Assembly: GCA_009840445.1 (NCBI GenBank)
Contig: VXNS01000036.1
Location: forward strand, 1-35,775
Direction of reading: 5' to 3'
Length of the DNA stretch: 35,775 bases
From: Synechococcus sp. SB0662_bin_14
Lineage (GTDB): Bacteria; Cyanobacteriota; Cyanobacteriia; PCC-6307; Cyanobiaceae
Shown here one piece after another: positions 1-8,270 of this stretch. Under the pieces are notes generated by a model. It saw only the letters and a list, made by a program, of their open reading frames with translations, was not told the DNA's origin and made no database searches. The position numbers were made by a program, and so were the translations under genes. The first letter of the stretch is position 1, and each line of letters opens with the position of its first letter.

Positions 1-612
1 ATCGGTTGGGGGGGTAACTTCCGGTAAAAACGCCAACGGGTTTGGTGTGTCCCTAAACCCACCCATCCCCTTCGCCAAACGTTAAAAATTTTTAAAAAAC
101 CCCCCCCCCCCCCCGAAAACCAAAGAAAGCGGGTTTTTAGCACTTCGGCGGCAGGGCTGAGCCTGCCTCCTGCCAGTGTACCAAGTGGCACAGGACCGCT
201 ACGAGCGACCCATGGCGCTCAATCACGGCTGGCATTAGCCGGTAGACGTTCAGATCTCCACAGGCAGGCATTGCCGCCCTTACCTGCCCAGCCAGGTCTT
301 CACGGGCCTGGACGGGCGTGCTCTTGTCTGGCGATGGGTGGGCGTGCTCTGTACTCCCCGACCGAGAACAGTCAGAGCCCTTTGTGTGCTTTGCCCTGGG
401 TTTGGGCCAAAGCAAAATTTGGCGATTTCAAAGCCAACCTGACCCATCAGGAAACGATTACTGACTGCCCAACGGGCATCTCGAAAGGATTGGATTTTTC
501 CTCGCTTGGAAAAGTCTGGGTAGCTGCGGCTACACATCCCCCTCCACTATCCATAGCACCTTATGGCTTACACATTCCAACCTCTGACCCGCTTTTATTC
601 CTCTTCATTCCC
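1..612. other. Gene-poor edge with poly-C tract
   Basis: No gene can be supported here. Positions 81-114 are low complexity: an A/T-rich stretch followed by a run of 15 C (100-114). This could be a true homopolymer or an assembly-edge artefact. From about 140 to 540 both strands stay open for up to 90 codons, but the translations have no recognisable domain, and the plus-strand reading frame simply runs into the downstream DUF1036-like gene. The block may be a fragment of a dispersed repeat or a decayed gene. Confidence 0.4.
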
Positions 613-1167
613 ATGAAAGATTTACCTCTGTCTCACTGGTGTTCTATCCAATTTTTGCCGCTCTTTGTCGCTTTGCTGGGCTACGTCCTGATTCTTGGAT
701 TCGCTAAGCCTGCAGAAGCGAGAATGAGGTTCTGCAATCATTCTGGCCAAAAGTTAGCTGTATCTTGGGCGTGGAAAGATACTGATAACGACTGGAAATC
801 CGAGAGTAGTTATATATACGATCCAGGAGAATGTAGTAATGTTTATTCTTCTCCTCTAAGATCAAGAATTTATTATTACTATGCAAAAGCTGTCAGTGGC
901 GGAACAACTCATGGTGCATCAACAGGAGCTAATAGAAGCTTCTGCGTTAGCAATCGTTCATTTGACATTGTATATGATGGTACTAATGTGCCTTATTATG
1001 ATCTAAATCACAAGGCCGCTGGTTGGAAAAGTACTTGTTCAGCACTCGGAGAAGGAACTGATTATGTATATCAGCTAAGAGATTTTCGCCAGATCAATAC
1101 AGGACGATTTGGTTTTCGTTGTACAGTTTATTTGGAGCAAAATGGAAGATCTAGTTATGACTGCTAA
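613..1167 (+). CDS. Secreted DUF1036-like protein (copy A)
   Basis: This 184-residue protein probably acts outside the cytoplasm. I chose the ATG at 613 because it places a hydrophobic signal segment (about residues 13-31) at the N-terminus, ending in an AEA cleavage-type site near residue 36. The frame is open further upstream (from a TTG at 271) but that stretch has no domain. The mature part starts with F-C-N-H-S-G (40-45) and contains a W/D-rich strand, a D-P-G-E-C motif, a run of Tyr residues and a later S-F-C. This is the arrangement expected of DUF1036 (PF06282), a secreted family of unknown function. The protein is Cys- and Tyr-rich. The gene is AT-rich (hand count 22 of 60 G+C at 781-840) against GC-rich neighbours, which suggests acquisition. 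A relative lies at 4072-4722. The family name rests on pattern only. Confidence 0.7.
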   Translation: MKDLPLSHWCSIQFLPLFVALLGYVLILGFAKPAEARMRFCNHSGQKLAVSWAWKDTDNDWKSESSYIYDPGECSNVYSSPLRSRIYYYYAKAVSGGTTHGASTGANRSFCVSNRSFDIVYDGTNVPYYDLNHKAAGWKSTCSALGEGTDYVYQLRDFRQINTGRFGFRCTVYLEQNGRSSYDC

Positions 1168-1179
1168 AGAAATCTCTTC

Positions 1180-1311
1180 GGGCACCTCGAGAAATTGCCG
1201 TCCCCCCGCATGGAAAGGCTTACTGGCCTACGAGAAATCCCTCTACAACTGACTTTCTCATGGTGAGACGGCAGCCCTCCAGGAGGCTTTACCCGATTTT
1301 TTGAGGTGCCC
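1180..1311. mobile_element. MITE-like element with terminal inverted repeats
   Basis: A 132-bp segment is bounded by imperfect inverted repeats. The left end begins GGGCACCTCGAGAAATTG (1180-1197) and the right end, read in reverse complement, begins GGGCACCTCAAAAAATCG; 15 of 18 positions match, with the outer 9 identical. The trinucleotide TTC occurs directly outside both ends (1177-1179 and 1312-1314), a possible 3-bp target duplication. The interior has no open frame of note. The structure fits a miniature or internally deleted insertion sequence. It lies between the first DUF1036-like gene and the small membrane protein. Confidence 0.5.
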
Positions 1312-1352
1312 TTCATCACCGCTCCCTCAACAATTTTTCATCCACCAGAATT

Positions 1353-1562
1353 ATGATCCAAGACCCAACTCAACACGAAGCCTCATCTGTCGCCTCTGAA
1401 TCGAATCAAGCCACCGTCAGTCAGCCTGATTCTACTCAGAAATCTTGTTACAGAGCGGCACTATGGCCAGCATGGGTGCAAGCGATAGCAACGGTATTTG
1501 TTGCTGTACTTGGACTTGTTGCATTTATCCATGTGGATCATAGGTATTGGAAAAGGGAGTGA
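1353..1562 (+). CDS. Small single-pass membrane protein, unknown
   Basis: A 69-residue product from ATG 1353. The first 36 residues are polar, rich in Ser, Gln and Thr. A hydrophobic segment follows (about residues 42-62), and the protein ends in a short basic tail (HRYWKRE). I recognise no family. No Shine-Dalgarno sequence is visible, so the gene call is weak. It sits between the MITE-like element and the subtilase, on the same strand as all genes of the envelope island. It could be a chance open frame. Confidence 0.35.
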   Translation: MIQDPTQHEASSVASESNQATVSQPDSTQKSCYRAALWPAWVQAIATVFVAVLGLVAFIHVDHRYWKRE

Positions 1563-1782
1563 CGAACCGGCAAAATCAGATGCCAGGCAGACGTCAGGAG
1601 CTTCCCTGGGAGGTGAGGAAGCGGGGGAGGTGGAAAAGAGAGAATAATTTGTCCCAAAAGAGCATTACAAAAGCCTTTTCAAGAGATGTTTATTCGCTTA
1701 CTCGATTTTCCACAGCAGCTCCTTAGCTCCTTTCCCCAGCCAACCCCACCCCCACTCCCAAACTCCAACCCCCACTCTACTC
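1563..1782 (+). promoter_or_regulatory. Leader region of the subtilase gene
   Basis: This 220-bp gap contains no gene. Its last 50 or so bases (about 1735-1782) are almost purely C, A and T on the plus strand, with repeated CCCCA/CTCC words right up to the ATG. There is therefore no Shine-Dalgarno sequence and probably an unstructured leader. No promoter boxes can be assigned with confidence. Confidence 0.25.
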
Positions 1783-3990
1783 ATGACCCTCTCCCCTCTC
1801 CAGAAATTCTCCCGCACCGCTCTGGTCCTCCCTCTCATTCTGCTGGCTTCCTGCGGCGGGAGCGATGACTCTGATTCCGCCACTGCTCGTTGCCTCAAAA
1901 CCCACAGTGGAGACTGCTTGACTGAGCCTGAATTGGCTAATCGAGCAAGGCAGCTAACCACCGCAATCCGCAAGAATCTTCGGAGCAGTCCGGGTGGCGC
2001 TCAAAATTGGGCCAGAGACGCGGTGAACGCCTATGAAGGCTATGCTCATGTTCATCTCATGAGAGGAGGAACAGCAGGGGCGTCACCTGGAGCAGGGATT
2101 CACATTGGCATCCTGGACACCGGGATTGACCTGAAACACCCTGACTTCGCTGGAATGGGGACCGGATCACGACAGCTTCAGGAAGGAGCTAAAAGGGAAC
2201 CACTCTTTTCGGAATCCCATGGTACTGCCGTGGCCAGCACAGCGGTGGGTTTTAACAGCGGTATTGCTTGGGGGGCAGACATGACGATGTTCTCGGCAAA
2301 GAATCCGGATCCTGGCCGCGGCGACTACGTGCCGCTGACGGCAGATCTTTACCAAGCAGCTCTCAATGAGAACCTGGATATCTTGAATATGAGTCTTGGT
2401 TATGGCCCCGGCCAGATTGACCGCAGGTCCTTTTCTGGCAACGTAGGAGCGATTAGCTCAACTTGGACTGAGGCTCAAGTACGTGATTTCTACGGATCCA
2501 ATATACTCAATGTGTGGGAACAACCAGATGCCTCTGAGAAAACGATCCTGGTCTGGGCTGCGGGAAATAATCACGGCAGGAATCGTTTCAATGCACATTC
2601 CCCCAGTCTTGACGCCGGCGCGGTGCGTTTCATACCAGAACTACAGGGCCACTGGGTAACAGTTGTTGCGACTGACAGGAGTGGAAATATCGCGGGTTTC
2701 TCAAACCGTTGTGGCATTGCTGCACAATGGTGCATCGCTGCTCCTGGTGAAAGGGTTCGAGTTGCTGCTTATGAGCCTTCTGGACTAAACACAAATGCTT
2801 ACCAAGAGCAAAACGGCACGTCTTTTGCGGCGCCCATGGTTAGTGGCGGCCTGGCTGTAATGAAGCAGTTGTTCCGTGGTCAACTCTCCAACACACAACT
2901 GGTGAGCCGGCTGTTTGCCACGGCCAAGAAGTCGGGCGTCCACGGCAATTCGGCCGTCTACGGCCAGGGCCTCATGGATTTGGGGGCCGCCACCAATCCC
3001 TGGGGAACCCCCGCCTTCATGGGCGCCGGCTCCTCCCTGGGGAACTCCGACGGGGCCGGCATGGCCACCTCCTTTGTCTCCCTGGGCAGCGCCCTTGGGG
3101 ACAGTTTGCCCCAATCCCTCCATCAACAGGAAATCGCCGCCTTTGACGGGCTGGGCGCTCCTTTCTGGCTCGAGGCCAGCAACTTCACCGTCCCCTCGGA
3201 CGGCGCTTCCGTCGCCACCCGCCTCAACCGCTTCCTGGCGCCGCCCCAGCGACCCGCCATCCCCGAAAACTGGCAGTTCGACTTCCAGGAGAAGGCTACT
3301 GCCACGGAGACCGGTCACCTGGCCCTCACCCATGGCGCTTCTCGTTTCACCGTGGCCGGTCCCCAGGGGACGGCCGCAACGCTCTTCCACAAACCCCAGG
3401 ACCTGGAAGGTCTGACCCTCTCCTGGACTCCCACCTCCCTGCCGGCCTTCACCATGGAAGCCGGCTACCTCAACGAGAACCAATCCCTGCTGGGCAGCCG
3501 AGGCAGCGGCGCCTTCGGCCAATTCTCCGGCCAAACCCTCTTCCTCGGCGCCGGGCTGGACGCCGCGTTCGGGGATTGGCAACTGGCGGCAGAGGGAGAA
3601 ATCGGCCAGGTGAATCCCTCCCTCTCCCACAGCCAGTTCATCGATGCCATCTCTCCCCTGTCCACCAGCGCCTTCCGCCTGGCCGCCAGCCGCCCCTTTG
3701 TCAAGGGCAGCACCCTGCGCTTCTCCCTTTCGGCGCCCCTGCGGGTCCACAGCGGCGCCGCCAGCCTTTCCCTCCCCACCGGCCGCACCCAGGGGGGCAC
3801 GGTGGTGGGCACAACCCTCTCCGCCCCCCTGGTTCCCAGCGGCCGGCAACTGGATCTCTCCGCCCAACTGGACCTGCCCCTGGCTGGCGGGGATCTCTCC
3901 CTGGGCGCCACCCGCAGCACACAGCCCCGCCATCAGCAAAGCGCTGCACCGGAGTGGACCTTCTTCACCGGCTATCGCGCCACCTGGTGA
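1783..3990 (+). CDS. S8 subtilase, NalP/SphB1-like lipoprotein autotransporter
   Basis: A 735-residue serine protease predicted to be exported and outer-membrane bound. The N-terminus is a lipoprotein signal with lipobox LASC, Cys24. The subtilisin triad is complete: Asp112 (ILDTGID), His146 (ESHGTAVAS) and Ser347 (NGTSFAAPM), with the oxyanion Asn at 262-263 (WAAGNN). After a linker, roughly residues 455-735 show alternating polar/hydrophobic strands and the chain ends in a terminal aromatic (YRATW), as in autotransporter beta-barrels. Subtilase plus lipobox plus barrel is the architecture of Neisseria NalP and Bordetella SphB1, which cleave other surface proteins. The barrel assignment is inferred from composition. 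G+C jumps near 2900, between protease and C-terminal part (28/60 at 2761-2820, 40/60 at 2941-3000), so the gene may be a mosaic. DUF1036-like genes flank it. Confidence 0.85.
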   Translation: MTLSPLQKFSRTALVLPLILLASCGGSDDSDSATARCLKTHSGDCLTEPELANRARQLTTAIRKNLRSSPGGAQNWARDAVNAYEGYAHVHLMRGGTAGASPGAGIHIGILDTGIDLKHPDFAGMGTGSRQLQEGAKREPLFSESHGTAVASTAVGFNSGIAWGADMTMFSAKNPDPGRGDYVPLTADLYQAALNENLDILNMSLGYGPGQIDRRSFSGNVGAISSTWTEAQVRDFYGSNILNVWEQPDASEKTILVWAAGNNHGRNRFNAHSPSLDAGAVRFIPELQGHWVTVVATDRSGNIAGFSNRCGIAAQWCIAAPGERVRVAAYEPSGLNTNAYQEQNGTSFAAPMVSGGLAVMKQLFRGQLSNTQLVSRLFATAKKSGVHGNSAVYGQGLMDLGAATNPWGTPAFMGAGSSLGNSDGAGMATSFVSLGSALGDSLPQSLHQQEIAAFDGLGAPFWLEASNFTVPSDGASVATRLNRFLAPPQRPAIPENWQFDFQEKATATETGHLALTHGASRFTVAGPQGTAATLFHKPQDLEGLTLSWTPTSLPAFTMEAGYLNENQSLLGSRGSGAFGQFSGQTLFLGAGLDAAFGDWQLAAEGEIGQVNPSLSHSQFIDAISPLSTSAFRLAASRPFVKGSTLRFSLSAPLRVHSGAASLSLPTGRTQGGTVVGTTLSAPLVPSGRQLDLSAQLDLPLAGGDLSLGATRSTQPRHQQSAAPEWTFFTGYRATW

Positions 3991-4071
3991 GCAATCTCTC
4001 CTGAGGGCCTGCAAGGGCTCTGCCCAACAAACAGCTTGTGTCACCTATCCCACTCAAGCCTTTCTTTTGCC

Positions 4072-4722
4072 ATGATCCCCGTTCGCCAATCGGTATCTGC
4101 CCAGCAAGACCAAGCGGATCAAAAGCCCGATCTCACGCTTTTCACGGAACTCTCAATTCCTGCTTCCCGTTACCCATCAACAACGAACAAGGCGGTGTTC
4201 GGACTCCCTGCTGTTTTCTTTGGCCTTGCGCTTTCACTCGGTCTTATCGGCAATGCAGCGCTAGCCTCCTGTACCTGTGATGAGCAGATACTAGGGAGGG
4301 AGTACTGTGATTCATACCTTGCACAGTGTCGTAGATATGTGACCAGACTAGAGGAGGTGCGCAAGCAAGCTAATAATTATGGCTGGGATGTATGTAACGA
4401 ATCTTCAGGGAGTGTTTATGCAGCCTATGCCTCTGCTTACCCAGGATACGGCTACACAAGGAAAGGCTGGACTACAGTTAGTCCAGGAGGTTGCAGAAGG
4501 ATACTGACTGAATCCATGACAGATAAAAATTATTATATTCGCATTGAAAGATCCGATGGAAGTAGTGTTACGAGAACAGAAAAGTCATTCTGTATGTGGC
4601 CGCCACAAAGCAACGGACAAACATATGAAGCTTCCTCGTCCACGTGTCGTAGTTGGAATGTGGGCAGTAAGTCTTTTCAAGAATTGCCAAAGGGCAATGG
4701 CTTTATTACTACAGTCCGCTAG
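4072..4722 (+). CDS. Secreted DUF1036-like protein (copy B)
   Basis: A 216-residue protein. I used the ATG at 4072; the frame opens slightly earlier (4036) without a better start. Residues 1-40 are polar, then a hydrophobic signal or anchor segment (about 41-63) leads to an ALA cleavage-type site near residue 65. A short helix with several Cys (67, 69, 79, 86) precedes the DUF1036-like core. The core has V-C-N-E-S-S (107-112), a GW followed by V-S-P-G-G-C (136-141), an NYY strand (153-155) and S-F-C (172-174). The spacing of these motifs matches copy A at 613-1167, although overall identity looks low. The unusually long N-terminal region before the signal is odd; a later start is possible. 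Function is unknown; a periplasmic or surface role is inferred. Confidence 0.7.
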   Translation: MIPVRQSVSAQQDQADQKPDLTLFTELSIPASRYPSTTNKAVFGLPAVFFGLALSLGLIGNAALASCTCDEQILGREYCDSYLAQCRRYVTRLEEVRKQANNYGWDVCNESSGSVYAAYASAYPGYGYTRKGWTTVSPGGCRRILTESMTDKNYYIRIERSDGSSVTRTEKSFCMWPPQSNGQTYEASSSTCRSWNVGSKSFQELPKGNGFITTVR

Positions 4723-4784
4723 TTTTCTGCTACTGACCTCCCTCCACAAGCTCTTCCAGATTGCGGTCAATCGACACGCATCAT

Positions 4785-6044
4785 ATGATGACCATGGCAT
4801 TCCTGGCTCCACCACCATCAGCGCCACCAACATGGTCCTGGCGCTTTCAGCGGGTAGGTCGCCGGGCCGGCGTTCTGGCCCTCAGCCTAGCCCTCGGCGT
4901 GCTGTCTTGTGCAGCCACGGGCGTTGCCCGGGGTGAACCCGGCAGGTCCCGTCTCTTTACGCCTCGCAGCCTGCGGCGTGTCGGTCCTGCCGTGGTGCGC
5001 ATCGACGGCGTAACCATTGAGCCCATTGGCGGACGCCCTTTCCCTTCCACTTCCATCACCCTGGAGCGGCAGAAATCTGATCCGTTTTTTCCTGATCCCT
5101 TCTTCCAGCAATTTTTCAACCCGCAACCCCACCAGAAGCAACTGGGGGCCGGGGTCGTCTTTACCGAGGAGGGGTTGATTCTCACCACCGCCCGGACGGT
5201 GGAAAGGATGGACTACCATCTGGACCTGCATTTCAGCGACGGCCGCACCCTGCCCGGCAAACTCGCGGGCGTGGATTTCGTGGCGGACCTGGCCGTGGCG
5301 AGGGTGGTGGCGGCGGCGCCTTTTGCCACGGCCCCCTTGGGGGATTCCGATAGGCTGAAGGTGGGAGATTGGATCGTGGCCGTCGGCAAGCACCCTTCAG
5401 GAACGGATAACACGGTTGCCACAGGCGTGATCAGCCGCCTTAACCATCACCAGGGCGCCCCTGATCAACAGTTGGAGACGATCCGGACGGACGCAGCCGT
5501 TGATCACAACAATGCTGGCGGACCTTTGGTCAATGTTGCGGGTAGAGTGGTCGGCATCAATACCCTGGCCCGCAGTGGCGAACCAGCGGATCATCAGGGG
5601 TTTGCCGTTCCCATCAACACGGCTCGCGCCGTGGCCGAGGAGTTGATCCGCACGGGATTGCGTCATCCCACTGTGGGCGTCAGGTTGTGGTCCCTCACCC
5701 CTGCCCTGGCGCGGGAATTCAACCAAAGCCCTGACAACACCGGCTTCCAGTTGCCGGAGCGCCAGGGAGTGTTGATTGTTGATGTCCGCTCCCGGAGCCC
5801 CGCCGAGCACGCAGGATTGCGGGCTGGAGACGTGGTGCTCACGGCCGCAGGCAGCAAAGTCGCCAGCCCGGTTGAACTGTTCCGGGCGGTGGCGTCCACA
5901 GGCGCAGGCGGGCGGCTGCAACTGGGCATCTGGCGGCAGAATCGGGTGCAGAAGGTCACGGTTGTGCCTGAGGAGATGGCGGAGCAGATGCGCCGAGCCA
6001 TGCGGGCCACCGTCACGCCCCTTCCTTCTCCTTCTCTCCCCTGA
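4785..6044 (+). CDS. HtrA/Deg-family pseudoprotease with one PDZ domain
   Basis: A 419-residue HtrA-type protein with an N-terminal hydrophobic export segment, a trypsin-like domain (about 110-285) and one PDZ domain (about 315-405). The fold landmarks of cyanobacterial HhoA/HhoB/HtrA are clear: GLILT, DLAVARV, LKVGDWIVAVG, RTDAAV and GGPLVN. The catalytic residues are not. The usual LTNAHVV reads LTTARTV, with Arg137 in place of His, and the usual GNSGG reads NNAGG, with Ala244 in place of Ser. Only Asp168 of the triad remains. It should therefore be a binding or chaperone-type protein, not a protease. ATG 4785 was chosen over an upstream TTG (4761); ATG 4788 and 4794 are also possible. Its stop lies 10 bp before the ankyrin lipoprotein, suggesting co-expression. 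Confidence 0.88.
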   Translation: MMTMAFLAPPPSAPPTWSWRFQRVGRRAGVLALSLALGVLSCAATGVARGEPGRSRLFTPRSLRRVGPAVVRIDGVTIEPIGGRPFPSTSITLERQKSDPFFPDPFFQQFFNPQPHQKQLGAGVVFTEEGLILTTARTVERMDYHLDLHFSDGRTLPGKLAGVDFVADLAVARVVAAAPFATAPLGDSDRLKVGDWIVAVGKHPSGTDNTVATGVISRLNHHQGAPDQQLETIRTDAAVDHNNAGGPLVNVAGRVVGINTLARSGEPADHQGFAVPINTARAVAEELIRTGLRHPTVGVRLWSLTPALAREFNQSPDNTGFQLPERQGVLIVDVRSRSPAEHAGLRAGDVVLTAAGSKVASPVELFRAVASTGAGGRLQLGIWRQNRVQKVTVVPEEMAEQMRRAMRATVTPLPSPSLP

Positions 6045-6054
6045 CCTTTTAGCA

Positions 6055-8178
6055 ATGTTGAATCTCCCCCAAAAAATCAGGTCGGTTCCCGTGACCCTGC
6101 CCCTGGTCATGGTGTTTTCCCTGGCGCTGCCTCTGGTTGCTTGCAGCCGTCCGACTTCTTCCCGGCCGTCTTCTTCGCCAGAACAGGTGACGGAAACGCC
6201 GCGGCAGGAATCCGTGCAAGCACCGGGCTTGGCAGCCCGCAACCGTACGGCGTTGCACGTTGCGGCGGCAGCAGGGGACGTGGAACAGGTGAAGCGGCTG
6301 ATCAACGCAGGACATCCGATCAACGCGCAACACCCGTCTGGTAGCCTCACTCCACTGCACAAGGCGGCCGGGGAGGGGCGCGCAGACGTGGTTCAGGTGC
6401 TCGTTGAGGCCGGGGCTCATCTCAATTACAAGACGGATAACGGCCAAACGCCTCTGCACCTTGCCGCTAAAATCGGTTCGGTAGAGATCTGTAAGCTGCT
6501 CATTGAAGCCGGAGCCAATCCCACGCTGATCGATAAAGACAACACAACTCCAAGGGGTATTGCAGCACAAGAAGGGCATACAGAAGTGGCTGAACTTTTC
6601 CCGGAGGACAGATTCTCTCGGAAGACAGAAAACGACTCTGTTGTTGATTCTGACTTGTACAATGCAGTATCGAATGGCCACACGGAAGTTGTGAAGACTC
6701 TCATTGCAGAAATGAGAAAGGGGAAACACTTTGATGGCTATTATGGATGGGATATGAATACAGTTGGCAGAGAAGACGGGAACGACAATACCTTACTTCA
6801 TGTAGCTGCCGCCAACGGTGATGCACAAATCGCCAACCTCCTGCTTGAAGCCGGGGCCTCTGTGACGGCTAAAAATAACCACAATAAAACCCCCGTTGAT
6901 CTTGCCCACGAGCACGGGCATGAAAGCCTGGCACAGCGGCTGGAGCGCGTTCCCCAATTGCTGGACGCGGCCGCGGCTGGTGACGTGGAGCAGGTGGAGA
7001 CCTTGCTGGCGGCCGGCGTCTACGTCAATGCCCACCAGTTTCCTGGGCGTCCTGTGGGCCCAACGCCGCTGCATCATGCAGCCGAGAAAGGATACGCCCC
7101 CATGGCCAGACTTCTCGTTGAGGCTGGGGCCAACGTCAATGCCCGCGTCCCGGAGCATTTTTACAACACTCCCTTGCATTTGGCCGCTTTTAACAACAAC
7201 CACACTGCCGTGGTTCAACTCCTCGTCGCGGCCGGGGCAAGCCTCGATAAACGGGCTAAGGACGGTAGCACCCCCCTGCTCCTGGCCACAGGAAACAAGA
7301 GCGGGAATCCGCAACCGGCCAGGCTGCTGATCCAGGCTGGCGCTGACCCCAACATCTCCAATCGCTACGGCAGAACGCCGCTGTTCCGGGTGGTTCAGAA
7401 CGGGGAGGCGGAGCTTGCCGATCTCCTGATTCAGGCCGGGGCAGACGTGAATGCTGCTGATCGTTTTGGCGCCACCCCATTGACATTTGCGGCAGAAAGC
7501 GGTTCAGTCGAAGTTGCTGAAGCGCTCATCAGCGCTGGCGCCACCGTCAATCCTGACCCCAGCAGCTTGCCCACACTGTATGACGGCAATACACCGCTCC
7601 ATGCGGCAGTAGGCGGAAGGAATCCCGCCGCAATGGTGGAGCTTCTGATTCAGCACGGGGTCAACGTCGATGTCATGGATAACCATGGCACTGCGCCGTT
7701 GCACACGGCAATTCGTTCCGGTGACGTGGCCGTGGCCAAGGCTCTGATAGAGGCGGGGGCGGACGTGAACGCTAAAAATGTTAACCATCAAGGGGATTCC
7801 GATAACTCCCCCTTGCACCTGGCCATCCATGAAGGCCATGGCGATCTGGCCAGGCTGCTCATCGAAGCGGGAGCCGATGTTCAGGCCAGAAACCATGCGG
7901 GCAACCCCCCTGTGCAGGTGGCGGCCTTTGCCGGCCTGCCGGAGGTGATCAAGTTGCTCGTTGAGGCCGGCTCGCCCGTCAACCTTCAGGATCAGGTGGG
8001 GGACACCCCGTTACACGATGCAGCCTTGAAAGGCCAAGTCGAAGCGGCCCGGGTTCTCCTTGAGGCTGGCGCGGACGTACACGCCAAAAACAACGCAGGC
8101 AAAACACCCCTGGACCTTGCCCGGCAACACGGCCACGAAAGCGTGGCCGCAGTGCTTCAGGCCGCCGGTGGTTCCTAG
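6055..8178 (+). CDS. Ankyrin-repeat lipoprotein
   Basis: A 707-residue protein made almost wholly of ankyrin repeats (about 18, many ending in variants of LLIEAGADVNA). The ATG at 6055 gives a lipoprotein signal with lipobox LVAC, Cys30, then a Ser/Pro/Glu-rich linker, so the repeats should be exposed in the periplasm or at the surface. The repeats form two blocks. Both begin with AAAAGDVEQV (residues 70-79 and 305-314) and both end with a capping repeat of the form KTPxDLAxxHGHES (from 278 and from 683). This points to duplication or fusion of two complete ankyrin units. A degenerate, lower-GC stretch (about 6540-6800) lies late in block 1. Ankyrin proteins mediate protein binding; secreted ones in symbionts can act on host cells, but no host target can be inferred here. 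Spacing suggests co-transcription with the pseudo-HtrA gene. Confidence 0.93.
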   Translation: MLNLPQKIRSVPVTLPLVMVFSLALPLVACSRPTSSRPSSSPEQVTETPRQESVQAPGLAARNRTALHVAAAAGDVEQVKRLINAGHPINAQHPSGSLTPLHKAAGEGRADVVQVLVEAGAHLNYKTDNGQTPLHLAAKIGSVEICKLLIEAGANPTLIDKDNTTPRGIAAQEGHTEVAELFPEDRFSRKTENDSVVDSDLYNAVSNGHTEVVKTLIAEMRKGKHFDGYYGWDMNTVGREDGNDNTLLHVAAANGDAQIANLLLEAGASVTAKNNHNKTPVDLAHEHGHESLAQRLERVPQLLDAAAAGDVEQVETLLAAGVYVNAHQFPGRPVGPTPLHHAAEKGYAPMARLLVEAGANVNARVPEHFYNTPLHLAAFNNNHTAVVQLLVAAGASLDKRAKDGSTPLLLATGNKSGNPQPARLLIQAGADPNISNRYGRTPLFRVVQNGEAELADLLIQAGADVNAADRFGATPLTFAAESGSVEVAEALISAGATVNPDPSSLPTLYDGNTPLHAAVGGRNPAAMVELLIQHGVNVDVMDNHGTAPLHTAIRSGDVAVAKALIEAGADVNAKNVNHQGDSDNSPLHLAIHEGHGDLARLLIEAGADVQARNHAGNPPVQVAAFAGLPEVIKLLVEAGSPVNLQDQVGDTPLHDAALKGQVEAARVLLEAGADVHAKNNAGKTPLDLARQHGHESVAAVLQAAGGS

Positions 8179-8270
8179 CCGGCCGCCCCGTGCCAGGGCA
8201 AGGTGGTTTTCCTTCGTTCTTCTTGGTCAGGGTTCGGGTTTAACATGGGAGCAGTGCCTGGGCTTGGAGC

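Follow-up and report, generated by a model that had tools for sequence, protein, structure and literature searches.

The 35,775 nucleotides of contig VXNS01000036.1 of Synechococcus sp. SB0662_bin_14, the whole of the DNA stretch analysed here (hereafter the window; contig C6 of the 2.16 Mb genome G000), encode a 419-amino acid HtrA-type protein (4785..6044, forward strand), termed pseudo-HtrA, in which two of the three catalytic triad residues have been replaced. The gene call is based on the open reading frame (ORF) and its translation, Pfam and NCBIfam matches and orthologues; the frame comprises 419 codons and a stop codon, with no internal stops, and begins at the ATG at 4785 (alternative starts: TTG 4761, ATG 4788 and ATG 4794, all forward). 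The 5′ end of the gene (4785..4940, forward) encodes a putative signal segment, in which RR precedes a hydrophobic stretch (residues ~26-48) and a helix is predicted at residues 23-40, and we infer that the protein is exported. This segment is followed by a trypsin-like domain (Trypsin_2; residues 121-258; 5145..5558, forward; 4.4e-23), supported by a fold match to Synechocystis HhoA (PDB 5t69), and a single PDZ domain (PDZ_2; residues 325-393; 5757..5963, forward; 2.5e-13), with both Pfam matches exceeding their cut-offs. The top sequence match is HhoA (2e-59), and the NCBIfam HhoA/HhoB/HtrA model matches at 1.5e-77, while every equivalog score lies under its cut-off, as expected for a divergent family member. 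The order of the two domains, the family-level similarity and its place within the Deg tree assign pseudo-HtrA to the Deg/HtrA family, and its one PDZ stretch is that of the cyanobacterial Deg proteins.

Orthologues sharing 71-82% identity with the window copy occur in three other genomes of the genus (G003, G006 and G008), such that this clade, denoted A, is represented in 4/10 genomes. The catalytic His site (5193..5195, forward) of the window copy reads CGG and encodes Arg137, the catalytic Asp site (5286..5288, forward) reads GAC (Asp168) and the catalytic Ser site (5514..5516, forward) reads GCT (Ala244). Translation and codons thus confirm the intact frame and the substitutions of His and Ser reported in the original prediction. 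Comparison of codons and alignments revealed CAG (Gln) at the His site of G003 and G008 and TGG (Trp) in G006, while the active-looking copies carry CAC or CAT, and none of the three orthologues covering this site in other genomes restores the His. As these orthologues also lack the catalytic His, we rejected the possibilities that the ORF occurs by chance or reflects a sequencing error. The codons CAG, CAG, TGG and CGG are consistent with an early loss of the His in one step, probably to Gln, with subsequent drift through CGG. Retention of the Asp alone, as originally predicted, applies to the window copy but not to the clade, since G003 carries Asn at the Asp site, and G008 retains the Ser where G003 and G006 have Ala. 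The absence of His is therefore common to the orthologues, while the Ser substitution is not; restoration of either residue, which had been proposed as a sign of recent decay or sequencing error, is observed for Ser in G008, but in a copy with Gln in place of His and without the Pro-Gly of the oxyanion loop.

The changes extend beyond the triad into the surrounding catalytic loops. In the window copy, NPFGL has become KHPSGT, INPGNSGG has become VDHNNAGG and the L3 Arg is replaced by His, while the L3 Arg and the oxyanion-loop Pro-Gly are absent from every full A copy. Of the positions at which 38 active-looking homologues show at least 95% conservation, those lost from the catalytic loops of 4/4 A copies include Asn135, Val138, Leu207, Asn240, Pro241, Gly242 and, in L3, the Arg that is now His221. 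The conserved residues are retained in barrel 2 (residues 248-262; 8/8), the helix that follows it (2/2) and the PDZ domain (12/14), or 22/24 in these regions versus 31/66 elsewhere (Fisher p 9e-5). An AlphaFold monomer model, built from 42 sequences, has a mean predicted local distance difference test (pLDDT) score of 77, exceeding 90 across much of the core, and contains both barrels and the PDZ domain. Its best fold match is Synechocystis HhoA (Foldseek E 2e-29); in the VIA-align superposition on HhoA (Z 29.4; root-mean-square deviation 6.6 over 282 residues), which is tied with those on other HtrA proteins, the high overall deviation probably reflects the domain placement, which the model leaves unfixed. 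The original description of the fold landmarks as well kept consequently applies to the PDZ domain and to the barrels with the helix that follows them, but not to the catalytic loops. With Arg137 and Ala244 flanking the remaining Asp168 and the Pro-Gly gone, the window copy does not have the triad and oxyanion loop of an active serine endopeptidase.

The L3 Arg of DegP and DegS is the sensor that relays activation. Given the loss of this residue and of the catalytic-loop residues, the G008 copy is unlikely to be a working protease despite its Ser. Residual or unconventional proteolysis, in this copy if in no other, could draw on the Asp and Ser it possesses, but here too the His, the oxyanion-loop Pro-Gly and the L3 Arg are lacking and the LD loop is altered, and we regard this as highly improbable.

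The genome G000 encodes four PDZ-bearing HtrA-type proteins and one short trypsin-like protein. Aside from A, these comprise B, which is 55% identical to A, and the more distant C and D. The triads of B, C, D and the short trypsin-like protein are intact, such that the Deg paralogues that the original prediction proposed to search for are present and active-looking. B is found in G000 and in 8/9 other genomes of the genus, its triad is intact in 9/9 copies, and it accompanies A in every A-bearing genome, namely G000, G003, G008 and G006, where the gene is partial at a contig end. A and B share ~50-55% identity, and in the maximum-likelihood tree A forms one clade (100/100) with B as its sister (100/96); on these sequences, duplication of a common ancestor best explains the two clades. 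No further A genes were found in 300 genomes of the family, where the main A copies scored E <1e-230, B ~1e-133 and all others no better than 4e-82. A search of GTDB contigs with the A profile yielded only distant HtrA proteins (~29-35% identity) in other phyla, and the same search of viral contigs gave no matches. A second, 5′-truncated pseudo-HtrA copy (L038:3486-4174; G006:C151), preceded by a DUF1036 gene, is present in G006; it shares 98% identity with the main copy, and both run off contig ends at one identical residue.

The selective constraints on the two domains were compared using a codon model written for the present analysis (F3x4 frequencies, branch-class dN/dS ratio omega), which included four A sequences and grouped the two root B branches with the stem, and in which recombination was not taken into account. 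Pairwise non-synonymous divergence (dN) of the protease domain is 0.08-0.21 among the A lineages versus 0.00-0.04 in B, while that of the PDZ domain is alike in the two clades. For the protease domain, omega was estimated at 0.374 in A and 0.047 in B, an about eight-fold relaxation, with both omega of 1 in A (twice the log-likelihood difference, 2dlnL, 39.0; p 4e-10) and equality of A and B (2dlnL 68.2) being rejected. For the PDZ domain, omega was 0.177 (0.18 when rounded) in A and 0.145 in B, and while a value of 1 in A was rejected (2dlnL 73.3), equality with active-looking B was not (2dlnL 0.46; p 0.5). The single PDZ domain that had been described as intact is thus under the same constraint as its counterpart in B.

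A duplicate drifting slowly towards a pseudogene, and retained by chance, could account for the quicker protein evolution of the protease domain, the patchy distribution of A and the truncated second copy in G006. Omega is, however, below 1 in both domains (p <1e-9) and the frames of all four main copies have remained open despite a synonymous divergence (dS) of ~0.3-0.65, and we consider slow decay unlikely. Recent decay was rejected, as the His loss is common to the orthologues and omega is below 1. With its triad lost in a lineage under purifying selection, clade A is, as judged from codons and alignments, a maintained pseudoprotease; no His has been restored and both domains have omega values far below 1, which upholds the original view that proteolysis was lost while selection acts on another role. 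The specific roles named in the original prediction, a chaperone, a scaffold or a dominant regulator of active Deg oligomers, are conjectural.

Pseudo-HtrA is located in an apparent accessory cassette (1..8240), which is joined to a conserved pebAB flank. Upstream of it lie genes for an S8 subtilase (1783..3990, forward), a probable autotransporter with a β-rich C-terminal domain ending in GYRATW, and, directly 5′ of pseudo-HtrA, a DUF1036 protein that is probably secreted (4069..4722, forward). An ankyrin-repeat protein gene (6055..8178, forward) begins 11 bases past the pseudo-HtrA stop codon. The order S8, DUF1036 and A is common to G000, G006 and G008; the ankyrin gene follows in G000 and G008, while the G006 contig ends within A. 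The guanine-plus-cytosine (GC) content of the cassette is 57%, versus 64% for the remainder of the window (8241-35775). The pebAB genes to the right of ~8241 are conserved in four relatives. Lyase-like and pentapeptide-repeat genes are found left of pebA in relatives; in G000 the cassette stands in their place, and the genes left of pebAB in G008 are located at one end of contig C3. At this contig end, a run of 134 bases shares 81% identity with the DNA that precedes the A fragment of G006. Furthermore, the A tree pairs G000 with G006, while the B and C genes pair G000 with G008. In combination, the GC contrast, the displaced flanking genes, the similarity between C3 and G006 and the conflict between the trees suggest that the cassette is accessory and exchanged between genomes, with contig breaks at its far end. 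Contamination of the bin was rejected, as the cassette and the pebAB genes conserved in relatives are on one contig; the copy is therefore native, provided that the join was assembled correctly. At the cassette junction, contig C3 starts with a run of ~50 C (L072:1-50) that was probably introduced by the assembly.

We propose, at a probability of roughly one half, that pseudo-HtrA is a Deg pseudoprotease with early loss of the catalytic His that serves as an exported, PDZ-mediated binder, either a holdase or an escort. Duplication of a Deg gene would have given rise to A, followed by the early loss of the catalytic His and further drift in the catalytic loops. The exported protein would use its PDZ domain to bind other exported proteins at unfolded or C-terminal segments, while the protease barrels may be retained as a scaffold or oligomerisation platform. 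Binding rather than cutting is the simplest reading, as the catalytic apparatus is lost while selection is retained and is strongest on the PDZ domain. DegP with a Ser-to-Ala substitution is known to keep its chaperone activity. As Deg proteins moreover unite chaperone and protease activities, as reviewed for DegP and DegQ (PMC4877387), a holdase or escort is the best-supported guess. Several observations weigh against this proposal. The G008 copy retains the Ser; A is known from only four lineages, all of them draft genomes; its absence from most of the genus means that it is dispensable; the A gene of G003 has no S8, DUF1036 or ankyrin cassette neighbours and lies near transposase-like frames; and S8 proteins of the linked subtilase family also occur in genomes that lack A.

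Alternatively, A may be a regulatory subunit that assembles with active-looking B into mixed trimers, in which it would either tune or block the activity of B. The constant company of an intact B, the sister relationship of the two clades, the heteromers proposed for Synechocystis HhoB and HtrA (PMC4877387) and the activation of MamE by MamO without catalysis (PMC4794232) would agree with such a role. Five of the 10 genomes, however, hold B without A, some nearly universal residues in the N-terminal segment (59, 62 and 75) are changed in A, and the relaxed part of the protein is the protease domain, the would-be interface. As such, a regulatory subunit is a possible but tentative explanation. 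A repurposing as in MamO, with the L3 pair His221-His222 binding a transition metal, has a precedent in the metal site of that protein (PMC4794232), and all four A sequences carry the pair, which B lacks, with His221 replacing an Arg present in 38/38 active-looking homologues. With four sequences, selection and shared ancestry are inseparable, however, and the His pair differs from the MamO site, which lies at other elements (published positions from PMC4794232, unaligned to A), and we hold metal binding to be very doubtful.

Should pseudo-HtrA act as a holdase or escort, the neighbouring subtilase with its GYRATW tail is a plausible candidate client. The C-terminal domain of this subtilase is modelled as β-rich, with fold matches, all weak, to outer-membrane barrels, among them those of the autotransporters BrkA and EspP, and a Pfam scan of the domain returned nothing credible; it is a probable β-barrel-like autotransporter domain. 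The S8 subtilase family (window 1783-3990; L074-L085) has several copies per genome in the genus, with a common C-terminal domain of ~330 residues that is without a Pfam match and in most cases terminates in FTGYRATW or a closely similar sequence. The G008 subtilase adjoining pseudo-HtrA (L035:11552-13927) is one residue short, ending in GYRAT rather than GYRATW. The PDZ domains of Deg proteins in other bacteria recognise outer-membrane-type C-termini, which makes the subtilase a natural candidate. As subtilases occur without A, and the A gene of G003 has no subtilase neighbour, this idea is weak and serves only as a lead. That the exchanged cassette carries its own PDZ chaperone, a dead Deg escorting the co-encoded autotransporter subtilase uncut through the periplasm, is a speculative and rather improbable extension.

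Pseudo-HtrA most resembles Synechocystis HhoA (PDB 5t69, 5b6l and 5t63) in sequence and fold, sharing its export segment, trypsin-like domain and one PDZ domain, but HhoA is an active protease, whereas A lacks the His, the Ser, the oxyanion Pro-Gly and the L3 Arg. The sister clade B likewise has a single PDZ domain, but an intact triad and a strongly constrained protease domain. HtrA-type proteins that have lost the triad are retained in magnetotactic bacteria, namely MamO, which acts non-catalytically, and inactive MamE paralogues (PMC4794232). While A shares with these the loss of the triad and the maintenance of the gene, its genomic setting is unrelated, and the TauE-like C-terminal transporter domain of MamO was not found in pseudo-HtrA by Pfam or in its sequence, which ends shortly past the PDZ domain. 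Inactive Deg peptidases with mutated peptidase domains, belonging to an 'unusual' Deg cluster, have also been described in the cyanobacteria Nostoc punctiforme and Anabaena variabilis (PMC4877387). On this published description they would be set apart from A, which is sister to an active-looking Deg of the Synechococcus family. Inactive Deg proteins are thus already known, and clade A is apparently a further, independent origin. It presents a clear case in which the protease domain loses constraint while the attached PDZ domain does not, with an active-looking sister in the same cells, and the split between the chaperone and protease roles of Deg proteins becomes testable on natural proteins instead of engineered Ser-to-Ala mutants.
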